A stretch of 64,000 nt of DNA from Anodontia alba (lineage: Eukaryota; Mollusca; Bivalvia; Lucinida; Lucinidae), in the NCBI GenBank assembly GCA_964016985.1, contig OZ024828.1, forward strand, positions 31,139,129-31,203,128, given 5' to 3'. Below the pieces are notes generated by a model that did no database searches, was not told where the DNA came from, and saw nothing but the letters and a program-made list of their open reading frames with translations. Shown here piece by piece: positions 35,858-54,991 of the stretch (position 1 is the first letter of the stretch; each line of letters starts with the position of its first letter). The position numbers and the translations under genes were made by a program.

Positions 35858-35881
35858 CAGTCCAGTCAGGGGTTAAGTTAA

Positions 35882-35960
35882 CCATTTTACCGGTCCACGG
35901 TCGTTCCAGTCCCGGTCCTCGGTCGTTCCGGTCCCGGTCCACGGTCGTTCCGGTTAATAT
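35882..35960 (+). repeat. Left subterminal repeats of the 19-kb insertion
   Basis: GGTCCACGGTCGTTCCAGTC, CCGGTCCTCGGTCGTTCCGG, TCCCGGTCCACGGTCGTTCC: three direct copies of about 27 bases. Inverted relatives at the right end suggest binding sites for a transposase, as in elements with subterminal repeats; that role is inference. Confidence 0.75.
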
Positions 35961-36835
35961 AGCGGTATCGGTCGGTCCGTTCCAATCGCTCCATAATCAT
36001 GACCGCCGTTCCGTTCCATTCCATTCATTCGTGTTCGCGTTATTGTGATAATAATTTACAATAAAAAAATCATTCAAATAATTTACTTACAATTAATCTG
36101 AATTGCGTGTGAAACAAAACATTCCTAAAATCTGTCTAGCTATCATTTTGAACGATTTACTTATTGAATTATGAATTTCTTTTTTCGTTTAAACTTTAAT
36201 TCCTAGTTTTTTACGCGACCGCTTAAAACAGGCGACTTTGTGTCGCTTTCGCTATTATTATTATCATTATTTTGTTTTATGCAACGGTTTTAAAAGTTTT
36301 TTTTTTTTCATACAAACTCTTAATAGTCTCAACTACTGAATTCCAAGCCTGTTTTACCTATTAATCGCTGATGTTTGTCACGTTAACGACATCGCAAAAA
36401 AAATTCCATCAGGACGGTTCACCAGTGACCGATAATTCGAACAAAAGATTGAAAATAATTTCATATTTTGTTGTAAAAAATACACATCGAACCTATCATC
36501 ATGCACACACCTCACCCGGATGGGAAAAAATCAAGTATCGAAATGCATAGAATTTGCTGAGTTAAACTTACGAGAAAATACTTTAATTTTCTGTACTAAA
36601 TCATTGATCAGATATTTACTGGTAATACGTCTAATGATATCCATTCACCAAAGTAAACATGTCTAATGACATTCATTGATCTTGATGTAAGAATATATAT
36701 ACACTAAAGGCAGTTCTAACGAGTACCCACAATCTGTTTTGAGCAGAAATATGAAAAAAATATTAGAATGTATACCAGTAAAATATTCTGATTCTGTCAG
36801 TAGCTGACAACTGCCCTTCTTGAATCAGCGGAAGA
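35961..36835. other. Left interior of the 19-kb insertion, no gene
   Basis: AT-rich. At 36705-36770 there is half of a family H hairpin (GTTCTAACGAGTACCCACAA then TTTTGAGCAGAAATATG). No protein signal. Confidence 0.45.
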
Positions 36836-37147
36836 GGGAGATTTGTTTGTGTTGAGGTTTTACGGCCCAGTCAACCCAATGGGGTCATGTCAAGCGCGGT
36901 CAGTTTACCTTACCACACGTTTACTGGGCAGGCTTAGTCCTCTAAGCCATTAACCAGTATTGTGCACATTCTTTCGCCAGACACTGACAACTGCCCTTCT
37001 TGAATCAGCAGAAGGGAGAGAATGACCGTAGAAAATATTTCATGATCAGTCTCCACAAAAGAATGTTGCTGACCTCGGCGGGGGTAGAACCCGCGACCTC
37101 CTGGTCTCCAGTCGGACGGCGCATCCAACTGAGCCACTGAGGCCGGC
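36836..37147 (-). mobile_element. tRNA-headed SINE, copy 1 (minus)
   Basis: The reversed tRNA-like head occupies about 37075-37147 (GGCCTCAGTGGCTCAGTTGG in sense, later CGCGGGTTCTA). The body contains TCTTTTGTGGAGACTGATCA and ATTCTCTCCC in sense; the tail contains TTTTACGGCCCAGTCAACCC in the reading shown. Three good copies (with 37225 and 40276) share the whole layout. Confidence 0.8.
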
Positions 37148-37224
37148 TATCGGAATAGGGAGGACGACCATAGAAATGATTTCATGGTGTGCCATTGCCA
37201 GTCCCCACGCTCTTTGCTAATGTT

Positions 37225-37540
37225 GCCGGCCTTGGTGGCTCAGTTGGATCGCCGTCCGACTGAAGACCAGAAGGTCGCGGGTTCAATCCCCGCTGAGGTC
37301 GGCAACATTCTTTCGTGGAGATAGATCATGAAATATTTTCTACGGTCATTCTCTCCCTTCATTTGATTCAAGAAGGGTAGTTGTCAGTTTCTGGCGAAAG
37401 GATGTGCACAATACTGGTTAACCGCTTAGAGAACTAAGCATGCCCAGTAAATGTGTGGTAAAATAAACTGACCGCGCTCGACATGTCCCCCTTCGGTTGA
37501 CTGGGCCGTAAAACCTCAAAACAAACTTACTTTGCTAATG
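37225..37540 (+). mobile_element. tRNA-headed SINE, copy 2 (plus)
   Basis: The head, 37228-37300, is 73 bases and folds as a tRNA: acceptor GGCCTTG / TGAGGTC with two wobble pairs, a perfect T arm GCGGG-TTCAATC-CCCGC and a D arm GGC / GCC. The anticodon loop CTGAAGA reads GAA (Phe type), but two pairs in that stem are broken, so it is not a working tRNA gene. The body and tail to about 37540 match the other copies. It faces copy 1 in inverted orientation. Confidence 0.8.
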
Positions 37541-37549
37541 TTGCTAATA

Positions 37550-52964: not shown

Positions 52965-53074
52965 AAAACCCTTAGGGAAGTCCTCCCAGGGGTGTTCCTG
53001 GTCCCCTGAAATAAAGTCAGCATTTTCCCTTGTTCCCCAAAATTAAAATCTTGACTTTCTATATTCCTTGTTCC
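52965..53074 (+). mobile_element. Left half of the AGGCCCTCCCAGGG-type MITE
   Basis: AAGTCCTCCCAGGGGTGTTC, CTGGTCCCCTGAAATAAA, TTTTCCCTTGTTCCCCAAAA. It matches the left part of 62370-62591 and is cut off by the tRNA-like sequence at 53075. Confidence 0.55.
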
Positions 53075-53140
53075 CCCCAATGGCTCAGTTGTCAGAGCAT
53101 CTGCTTGACAGGGAGGTTGTGGGTTCGATCCCCGACAAAG
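53075..53140 (+). repeat. tRNA-like SINE head
   Basis: AATGGCTCAGTTGTCAGAGC, ATCTGCTTGACAGGGAGG, TTGTGGGTTCGATCCCCGAC: A box and B box at tRNA spacing with a good B box. The anticodon stem does not close. It leads straight into the array at 53140. Confidence 0.65.
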
Positions 53141-54230
53141 GATACAAAGACCTGTCAGCTACACTGTACCCCTTTGTCAATCAGTAATGCGGGGTATAGT
53201 GGTCTGTCACCTAATTGTATACCGGAATATCTGTCAGCGACAAAGTATACAAAGACCAGTGTCAGCTGCACTGTCGGTTACCCGGAATATCAGTCAGGAA
53301 TCCAGGGTATAGTGGCCTGTTACATGAAGTGTACACCCGAATATCAATCAGCAACAAAGTATATGAAGTCCTGCCAGCTACATTGCACCCTGATGTATCA
53401 GTCAGTAACCTGGGATATACACTTAGAGTGTATAGATATACTGGAATATCGGTCAGCAACAATTAAAGTATACGAAGATCTGTCAGCTACACTGGTCCCT
53501 GGTGTATCAGTCAGTAACCCGGGATATAACAGCCTGTCACCCAGAATGTTTTGTAGTATAGGGTCCCGTAGTATACTTTGTCGCTGACTGATATTCACTG
53601 GTTTACACTTTAGGTGAAAAGTCCCTATACACTGGCTTATTGACTGATATACCAGGGAGCAGTGTAGCTTACAGGTCTTCATATATACTTTGTTGCTGAC
53701 TGATATTCCGGTATACATTCCATGTGACAGGCCACTATACTCCAGGTTACAGACTTATATACTGGGTAACAGTGTAGCCGACAGGTATTCGTATACTTTG
53801 TTGCTGACCGGTATTCGGGTATGTACTTCAGGTGACAAGCGGCTAAACCTGGGTACAGTGTAGCTCACAGACCTTGTTATACTTTGTCGCTGACTGACAT
53901 TCTAGTCCAGGTGAGAGGGTGCTATACCCTAAGTTACAGACTGATACTTTGGGGTACAGTGTAGCTGATGGGTCTTTGTATACTTTGTCTCTGACTGATA
54001 TTCCGGTATACACTTTAGGTGACAGGCTGCTATACCCTGGGTTACTGACTGATACGCTGATATACAGTGTAGCTTGCAGGTCTTGGTTTACTCTGTCGCT
54101 GACCAATATTCTGGTATACTCTCCATTGAGACAGGCCACTATACCCTGGGTTACTGACTGAGACACTGGGTAACAGTGCAGCTGACAGGTCCTTGTATAC
54201 TTTGTTGCTTATTCAGGTATATTTATAACT
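53140..54230. repeat. Inverted pair of about 110-base tandem arrays
   Basis: From 53140 to about 53560 the units read AATATCAGTCAGCAACAAAG, TATACGAAGACCTGTCAGCT, ACACTGxxCCCTGxTGTATC, AGTCAGTAACCCGGGATATA. From about 53570 to 54230 the units are the reverse complement (TATACTTTGTTGCTGACTGA and so on), about four and six units respectively. Open frames on both strands (185 and 107 codons) are translations of the repeat, not genes. Confidence 0.85.
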
Positions 54231-54561
54231 GTCAGCTATCAAAACAAAAAAAATAAATAAATAAATAAAAAATAAAACATTAACCTCGACCCTGTCACAT
54301 TGAGTAGAACATAACATACTTTCTATGCTGCGCATCGTGTTTGCAAATCAGTCAATCTATCAGCGATATGAAGTTCTCTAATACCATGTTAGATTGTGTT
54401 TATTTTTAAATTTCAATTGCTGTTTTGTCAAGGACAATGCCAGTCACTGGCTTATAGTGTAATTCTTTGCTTATTATATGAACGTCTGTTTATACAGGGT
54501 AAAGTTTACTGAAACTTATATCAGGGATTTACATATTTATTCTATTAACTCATAACCTAAA

Positions 54562-54611
<50 letters not shown>

Positions 54612-54839
54612 CCTTTTTTCATAGCTGACAAACCAAGTAAAATCTCCTTTGGCAGCATATAATAGACAGCATTGACTGCTTTAAGATTATTTAGATTGTC
54701 ATCTTAAGAAAGTACTGTTTTAGAATATGTATTGGCGCGGGAAGAGTGGTCACTTTATATTGTTTTAAAGGTCAAATTGCGTTTCGTCTGATAACAACTC
54801 AATTTTAGTAAACACCGTTCCATTTTTTCACTGGAATGG
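54231..54839. other. No recognisable gene; (AG)n microsatellite
   Basis: (AG)n at 54568-54609. Otherwise AT-rich. Confidence 0.6.
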
Positions 54840-54991
54840 ACCGGAACGACCGGGAACGCTAAGAAAGCGAGAAATGGAACTGACCGTCGCTCCGTTCCAG
54901 TCGTTCCGGTACCGGTCCGGTCCCGGTTGCGTTCCGGTCGTTCTCCGTTCATCGGTCGTTCAGGTGGTAAAGCTAACCGCTGACGGGACTG
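54840..54991 (-). repeat. Right subterminal repeats and terminal inverted repeat of the 19-kb insertion
   Basis: GACCGGAACGACCGGGAACG, TCCGTTCCAGTCGTTCCGGT, ACCGGTCCGGTCCCGG, TTCCGGTCGTTC, then TAACCGCTGACGGGACTG at the edge. These are inverted relatives of the left-end repeats at 35882-35960. Confidence 0.75.

Follow-up and report, generated by a model that had tools for sequence, protein, structure and literature searches.

A 19-kb TA-flanked insertion with short inverted ends in the bivalve Anodontia alba, from a family of giant and probably non-autonomous DNA transposons

Introduction

Tc1/mariner elements are usually 1-3 kb long, CACTA elements have subterminal repeats, and the target duplications of Pack-MULEs measure 9-11 bp. 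According to an excerpt of PMC6431247, DNA transposons that depend on a helper are thought to be kept small, transposition declining above ~6 kb of cargo, and none of the Pack-MULEs cited there exceeds 7 kb; the same excerpt describes enlarged En/Spm elements of 16-20 kb with 4-5 open reading frames in the red alga Chondrus crispus. In the CMCT clade, as presented in an excerpt of PMC12730594, most members have CA..TG ends with a 2-5-bp duplication, and the transposases are recognised by C(2)C and H(3-4)H motifs. ESTA, an EnSpm-like lineage in the same excerpt, produces TA duplications and includes fungal families carrying a transposase together with a TET/JBP gene. The composite-like KolobokP elements, which are rich in bivalves, have two end modules around an internal region (excerpt of PMC9587614), and Mavericks make up 1.69% of the hard clam genome according to a table in an excerpt of PMC8905726. 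Here, we describe an insert of 19,134 bp (35858-54991) found in the window, that is, the whole stretch of 64,000 nucleotides of A. alba DNA that was analysed.

Results

The insert is likely heterozygous and is flanked by a TA duplication

The window holds two contigs separated by a scaffold gap. With the insert taken out, contig 2 (35796-61665) aligns to contig 1 (28874-35595) with 97.5% identity across 6.7 kb, with 97 substitutions in 6,773 aligned columns (1.43%), and the alignment ends precisely at each edge of the gap. Judged from the assembly, these are likely two overlapping haplotype contigs, and the insert is likely missing from the other parental copy, which would make it a heterozygous insertion, as the preliminary description had claimed. 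The features of the two contigs and of the insert ends are the following.

28874..35595: end of the likely allelic contig, lacking the insert (contig alignment)
28934..28935: single TA at the empty site, on the likely allelic contig (sequence)
35596..35795: scaffold gap of 200 N separating the two contigs (sequence)
35856..35857: TA target duplication, left copy (sequence)
35858..35875, plus strand: left terminal inverted repeat, CAGTCCAGTCAGGGGTTA; among the matches listed, the left 26-mer has at least 94 exact occurrences in the genome
35902..36017, plus strand: six CGTTCC motifs (element positions 45, 67, 89, 121, 150 and 155), a putative transposase-binding array
54816..54935: right subterminal region with six CGTTCC/GGAACG motifs of mixed orientation and putative binding role
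54974..54991, minus strand: right terminal inverted repeat, CAGTCCCGTCAGCGGTTA; among the matches listed, the right 26-mer has at least 82 exact occurrences in the genome
54992..54993: TA target duplication, right copy (sequence)
54992..61665: flank to the right of the insert on the occupied allele, aligning with 28934-35595

The empty site reads ...ATGTATAGTG... with its one TA, and the duplication is TA only, not TTAA. The 18-bp inverted ends are identical at 16 of 18 positions between left and right, for which the probability by chance is ~2e-8 at a preset place. Inverted ends, a target duplication of fixed length and an empty site are the marks of a class II transposon with terminal inverted repeats. 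Only 62 bp separate the left junction from the end of the contig; the left end of the insert recurs in other genomic copies, where as much as 1.5 kb of element follows it. Behind the ends, GGTCGTTCCGGT occurs three times in the window, every time close to the insert ends, and the shorter CGTTCC/GGAACG core is found six times inside the terminal 180 bp at each end. This array likely corresponds to transposase-binding sites.

The ends pair at about 19 kb throughout the genome

The ends follow the motif CAGTCC.GTCAG.GGTTA. The TA-anchored end motif gave 173 exact matches in the 1.86-Gb genome, the reversed control giving none, and TA adjoins 98 of the 102 exact ends that allowed a cross-check. 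Among the matches listed, of which 100 of the 101 left ends and 100 of the 102 right ends entered the pairing, left and right ends form at least 76 inward-facing pairs; 24 left and 24 right ends have no partner within 60 kb, and no listed copy lies on contigs C3 and C11. Spacing falls between 17 and 27 kb in 70 of the 76 pairs (median 19.4 kb); the pairing controls yielded 2 outward-facing pairs, 1 same-strand pair and 4 left-left neighbours. Thus the ends do not exist only as independent short elements, which, had it been the case, would by the preliminary description have refuted its reading, and the unusual giant size that it had proposed is borne out.

All 30 extracted loci match the ends of the insert, and no two of the 30 sampled end flanks are alike within 60 bp of the element, so that the copies are dispersed with independent flanks, as is typical of class II elements. 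Farther from the element, the sampled flanks have dispersed repeats in common. Ten other copies were read at length, in pieces, nine of them near full length and one being a 10.5-kb deletion form, and, internal insertions and deletions aside, they align with the insert over its length. Their identity to the insert is 97.7-98.3% over retained segments, segments below 94% identity or 150 bp having been dropped. Pairwise substitutions among copies range from 0.04 to 1.53% with a mean of 1.26%, versus 1.43% between the alleles; the lowest value concerns two copies at different sites. Subfamilies at different sites are marked by common internal deletions or insertions. An 841-bp interior probe matched at 98-100% in 40 of the 40 places scored, out of 2,429 candidates. 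The same interior in ten copies, the low divergence and the unmatched flanks together indicate that the 19-kb unit itself moves and has recently multiplied, which agrees with the transposition proposed earlier. Since these copies share the interior with its repeats, except for individual indels, the suggestion that the insert had been swollen by private nested insertions was abandoned.

The pair of ends spaced by 36 kb on C6 is an older-looking copy with GGTCA ends, 94-96% identical to the insert in the 13.5 kb read. It carries a nested insertion of 14,708 bp, ~4.3 kb of which were left out of the reading, and a Pfam scan over 10 kb of this copy gave only a sub-threshold Atrophin-1 scrap. On the 13.5 kb read, it was therefore not retained as the autonomous partner that it had resembled.

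The interior and the ends form distinct CpG domains

Between its ends, the insert consists of minisatellites, SINE-like repeats and further sequence in which no gene is recognised.

35858..36607: left end domain (element 1-750), CpG-rich; CpG not hypermutable (4 of 945 observations)
36608..54657: interior of ~18 kb, without recognised gene, CpG-depleted, CpG hypermutable; likely captured host DNA
36842..37526: two SINE-like repeats of opposite orientation (36842-37151 and 37224-37526), with a third copy at 40294-40602
37924..39381: minisatellite with ~145-bp units
44135..44893: dispersed repeat of ~280 bp in two copies, also present outside the insert, e.g. at 676-953, 3151-3429 and 63383-63661
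47742..48984: minisatellite with ~98-149-bp units
51201..52138: minisatellite with ~326-bp units
53135..54209: minisatellite with ~108-bp units
54658..54991: right end domain (element 18801-19134), CpG-rich; CpG not hypermutable (1 of 550 observations)

The tRNA-like head of the SINE-like repeats was judged by eye only. The interior is CpG-depleted and CpG loss is ongoing: CpG transitions among copies amount to 200 of 5,636 observations (3.55%) there, versus 0.57% change at other interior sites. In the outermost ~750 bp on the left and ~330 bp on the right, CpG is abundant and stable, with transitions of 0.42% and 0.18%, respectively. Such a sharp change near each end suggests two DNA domains with different histories. 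Alternatively, methylation of the transposon, and not a host origin, may account for the depletion; of the flank 1-kb windows, 13 of 45 also lie below 0.7 for CpG.

No recognised gene is found in the insert

A six-frame Pfam scan of the insert, a procedure run without a positive control in this genome, detected no family at the cut-off, and it agrees with the absence of a visible transposase noted earlier; neither a transposase with C(2)C and H(3-4)H motifs nor a DDE/D transposase was seen in it. It left two sub-threshold scraps at E<=1, DUF3915 and ScdA_N, and the same scan of the flank, as a control, gave nothing either. A PDB search with one frame of the insert found no match; no result came from Rfam on the window, from a phage collection searched with the first 1.2 kb, or from viral contigs searched for the terminal inverted repeat pattern. 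In L041, the Pfam rows of a nested minisatellite (Helicase_C total 23.9 for a cut-off of 23.5) were dismissed as tandem-repeat noise because no row has a passing stretch of its own.

Discussion

Taken as a whole, the locus probably belongs to a giant family of ~19-kb DNA transposons with short inverted ends and a TA duplication, without recognised gene, non-autonomous and moved by a TA-targeting transposase encoded elsewhere. In such a mechanism, a DDE-type transposase would bind the 18-bp ends with their subterminal CGTTCC repeats, excise the 19-kb unit and reinsert it at TA, and copy number would rise via sister-chromatid repair or movement across replication. The interior would be host DNA, probably from a methylated (transcribed) region, caught between two ends of one family before amplification. 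This origin is proposed because the interior combines a signature of CpG loss with ordinary host repeats, as opposed to CpG-rich ends that would represent a different, unmethylated domain. Somewhat less than even probability is given to the more specific reading of a giant cargo-only transposon, in which two short ends and ~18 kb of non-coding host DNA were amplified as a block to at least 76 end pairs, are still moving, and keep a methylated-type interior between unmethylated-type ends wherever they land.

Among the described systems, Pack-TYPE elements and Pack-MULEs likewise hold DNA between inverted ends and are likely moved in trans, and the insert has, like Pack-TYPE elements, no transposase of its own in the Pfam scan run without a positive control; it differs by its 19 kb, its TA, its many near-identical copies of one unit and the lack of a recognised gene fragment. 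The Chondrus crispus En/Spm elements are of the same size range but have reading frames where the insert has no recognised gene. KolobokP resembles the insert by its two end modules around an internal region, but its long terminal repeats are direct and it contains a transposase. TTAA is duplicated by the Kolobok superfamily and TA by the insert, and both Kolobok and Teratorn/piggyBac were rejected on this ground.

That the family is strictly derived from Tc1/mariner is possible, though we rather doubt it. Like non-autonomous Tc1/mariner elements, the insert has a TA duplication and ends beginning with CAGT, but it is 19 kb long and no transposase relative was found in it. Its subterminal repeats of mixed orientation are more reminiscent of CACTA/EnSpm elements. 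Moreover, the insert has CA..TG ends and a duplication within the 2-5-bp range of the CMCT clade, most of whose members have such ends; within that clade, the EnSpm-like ESTA lineage is described as duplicating TA as well (excerpt of PMC12730594), but its families carry genes where no coding sequence was found in the insert. Thus, of the earlier Tc1/mariner proposal, the TA duplication and the CAGT ends are retained and the assignment itself is not established, a TA duplication with CA..TG ends also fitting, for instance, ESTA.

It is unlikely that the interior is the decayed body of a once larger transposon, later filled by SINEs and minisatellites before the recent burst. Nested repeats are common in DNA transposons, and the older-looking copy with GGTCA ends has the same interior where read, as this scenario would have it; however, the different histories suggested by the sharp CpG change ~750 and ~330 bp from the ends speak against it, and the six-frame Pfam scan revealed no relic domain.

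An autonomous element, whose interior would contain an intron-rich transposase gene of a non-Pfam family and so a new transposase lineage, appears quite unlikely. An autonomous unit would be expected to keep the same interior, as the ten other copies do, and the 10 stop-to-stop frames of at least 100 aa in the insert exceed all of 100 Markov simulations (mean 4.1, maximum 9), the longest frame, 190 aa, being near the simulated maximum of 192 aa. However, two flank windows of equal size hold 8 and 9 such frames, the interior is repeat-rich, no consistent codon phase was seen by eye among substitutions, and 34 of 39 windows contain indels of a length not divisible by three; the Pfam and PDB searches described above also argue against this possibility.

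The probability of a degenerate Polinton/Maverick, Teratorn-like or other virus-derived giant element is very low: its size is of the same order, but 18-bp ends with a TA duplication fit poorly, and Polinton/Maverick was rejected as neither polymerase, integrase or capsid families in six frames nor long inverted ends were found. An assembly artefact or a segmental duplication without transposition, which the contig end near the left junction could evoke, is practically dismissed by the genome-wide end pairing, with dozens of end pairs of similar length at different sites and flanks unmatched among the 30 sampled.

What is new, and striking, is the size of this probably non-autonomous transposon, well above what is usual for helper-dependent elements. 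If the cargo-only reading is true, helper-dependent transposition succeeds naturally here at ~3 times the ~6-kb cargo beyond which a loss of efficiency is described. The existence of a native family of 19-kb units in dozens of almost identical copies implies that some animal transposase copes well with large cargo, and this enzyme may be of use in large-cargo gene delivery. The sharp CpG boundary near each end would offer a natural test of how methylation follows sequence in an invertebrate, and the identity of the transposase would explain the spread of large non-coding blocks and big presence/absence differences among individuals.

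The insertion and its empty site

The 19,134-bp insertion is bounded by inverted ends, CAGTCC[A/C]GTCAG[G/C]GGTTA, identical at 16 of 18 positions, and TA adjoins it on the left and on the right. The other of the two assembly contigs in the window carries the empty site with one TA, as the preliminary description had claimed for the ends, the flanking TAs and the unoccupied site alike. The features are the following:

28874-35595, end of contig 1, aligning to contig 2
28934-28935, empty site in contig 1, one TA
35596-35795, gap of 200 N between the two contigs
35796-61665, contig 2 from its start, aligning to contig 1 with the insert excluded
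35858-54991, insertion

The two contigs are 97.5% identical over this overlap (97 substitutions in 6,773 aligned columns). Because the match ends precisely at both edges of the gap, we infer that the contigs are the two haplotypes of a single animal, which the scaffolder linked in tandem, and the insertion is therefore likely heterozygous. The clean one-TA site suggests a site that was never occupied rather than an excision product. Positions 28874-35595 and 54992-61665 represent one locus twice, as two haplotype contigs, likely a false duplication in the assembly.

The insertion belongs to a dispersed family

We searched the genome (1,862,613,979 bases, 317 contigs) for the ends of the element. 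A TA-anchored end pattern gave 173 matches and the reversed control pattern none. Allowing up to two mismatches, the left terminal 26-mer was found at 101 places and the right one at 102; of the 100 listed for each, 94 and 82, respectively, are exact. From these listed places, at least 76 inward-facing left-right pairs lie within 60 kb, 70 of the 76 spanning 17-27 kb and 43 spanning 18.4-19.9 kb, with a median of 19,373 bp and a sum of 1.51 Mb. The same listed ends gave two outward-facing pairs, one same-strand pair and four left-left neighbours as controls; 24 of the listed left ends and 24 of the right ones had no partner within the listed matches. When the first 100 of the 173 TA-anchored matches were paired separately, 40 pairs were obtained, 37 of them spanning 15-30 kb; random placement would give about 0.1. 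On contigs C1-C10, as far as the listed TA-anchored matches extend, TA stands beside 98 of 102 exact ends (51/54 left and 47/48 right 26-mers recurring in that list).

The listed pairs sit on 17 of the contigs C1-C19, plus C31 and C233, and C14 is the richest (12/76). C3 and C11 have no family end or interior match among the matches listed, which may be a true absence or reflect incomplete coverage of the search.

All 30 loci excised around ends run on into the same element, and no two of their junction flanks are alike within 60 bp of it, some having dispersed repeats in common farther away. Ten further copies, chosen non-randomly and read piecewise with segments below 94% identity or 150 bp discarded, are 97.7-98.3% identical to the insert along its length, save internal insertions and deletions. 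Among the ten is a copy shortened to 10.5 kb by internal deletion, and there is also a 2.3-kb form (loci L019/L020). Pairwise substitution distances among copies range from 0.04 to 1.53%, with a mean of 1.26%, similar to the 1.43% between the two alleles at the insertion site.

Two copies on C2, 5.7 Mb apart in unlike flanks, differ by 0.04% and both contain a nested element, about 2.3 kb long, with a minisatellite; another two copies have a 0.6-kb deletion in common. We take such common marks to define subfamilies whose members moved after gaining them. The nested element, with its inner minisatellite, occupies 5231-7525 of locus L041 and is also in L044.

A variant right end, GGTCA, accounts for 11 of the 100 right-end matches listed. 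Its one sampled representative, on C6, shows 94-96% identity in the stretches read and contains an insertion of about 14.7 kb nested within it, so an older layer of the family likely exists. That nested insertion (within C6:80272200-80289999, L051 and L052) begins TGT and finishes ACA by eye, and is possibly LTR-like; 10 kb scanned of this older-looking copy gave no Pfam family at cut-off. At L027 (C4:82023478-82026497), an inverted right end lies about 200 bp beyond a 473-bp left end, forming a compound or recombined end. At L023/L024 (C4:56.06-56.08 Mb), 467 bp adjoining the left end of one copy recur at 99.6% past its right end, which we read as another local duplication or haplotype overlap.

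Coding content and interior repeats

A six-frame Pfam scan of the whole 19 kb, with X at stops, returned no family at cut-off and two sub-threshold scraps only; a flank scanned as control was likewise empty, which leaves the sensitivity of the scan in this genome unproven. A PDB search with one frame of the element gave no match. Judged by eye, the substitutions that separate copies follow no consistent codon phase, and 34 of the 39 500-bp windows contain indels whose length is not a multiple of three. However, the insert holds ten stop-to-stop frames of at least 100 aa, exceeding all 100 simulations (mean 4.1, maximum 9), which counts against a reading without genes. The longest, of 190 aa, does not exceed the simulated maximum of 192, and 8 and 9 frames of at least 100 aa occur in two flank windows nearby. 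Within the interior lie SINE-like repeats, several minisatellites and a dispersed repeat of about 280 bp, which occurs outside the insert too.

CpG domains

CpG observed/expected is 0.06-0.68 across the seventeen 1-kb windows of 37001-54000. At the left end it climbs to 1.5-2.3 within the outermost few hundred bases, and at the right end it is about 1.5 in the last 200-300 bases or so. Of the 45 flank windows, 32 have a value of at least 0.7; the 13 below it lie chiefly around 7-14 and 22-27 kb. In the interior (between the left 750 bp and the right 334 bp), CpG-to-TpG/CpA differences among copies affect 200 of 5,636 CpG observations (3.55%) and change at non-CpG sites is 0.57%; the ends show 4/945 (left) and 1/550 (right) such CpG differences. 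This points to a germline-methylated interior and unmethylated ends. Because PMC11292947 places methylation on transcribed genes in most invertebrates and on transposons in some species, the pattern fits either gene-body DNA that was captured or the methylated body of a transposon, and with moderate confidence we favor captured DNA. A CpG-depleted block of the window contains a foldback-like inverted repeat of 1.3 kb (21919-23227 / 25693-26991, 88.7%), in whose region six frames gave no Pfam family.

Proposed mobilization and standing of the element

The unit is young, is inserted at many distinct TA sites and lacks a recognised transposase. It is probably mobilized in trans by a DDE transposase, which would recognise the 18-bp ends together with six CGTTCC/GGAACG motifs situated in the outer 180 bp or so at each end. 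Movement would be by cut-and-paste, copies being gained via repair or replication timing, and the element would have been born when two ends trapped host DNA.

TA duplications also occur outside Tc1/mariner, according to PMC12730594. In the review PMC6431247, none of the Pack-MULEs cited is above 7 kb, transposition falls off beyond about 6 kb of cargo, and red alga En/Spm elements of 16-20 kb have 4-5 reading frames. The top-ranked results from the open-access literature contained no prior report of such a family. Both the unusual size and the missing visible transposase of the preliminary description are borne out. The element is real, recent and unusual: a probably non-autonomous TIR transposon, of a kind already known, exceptional in its size and cargo.
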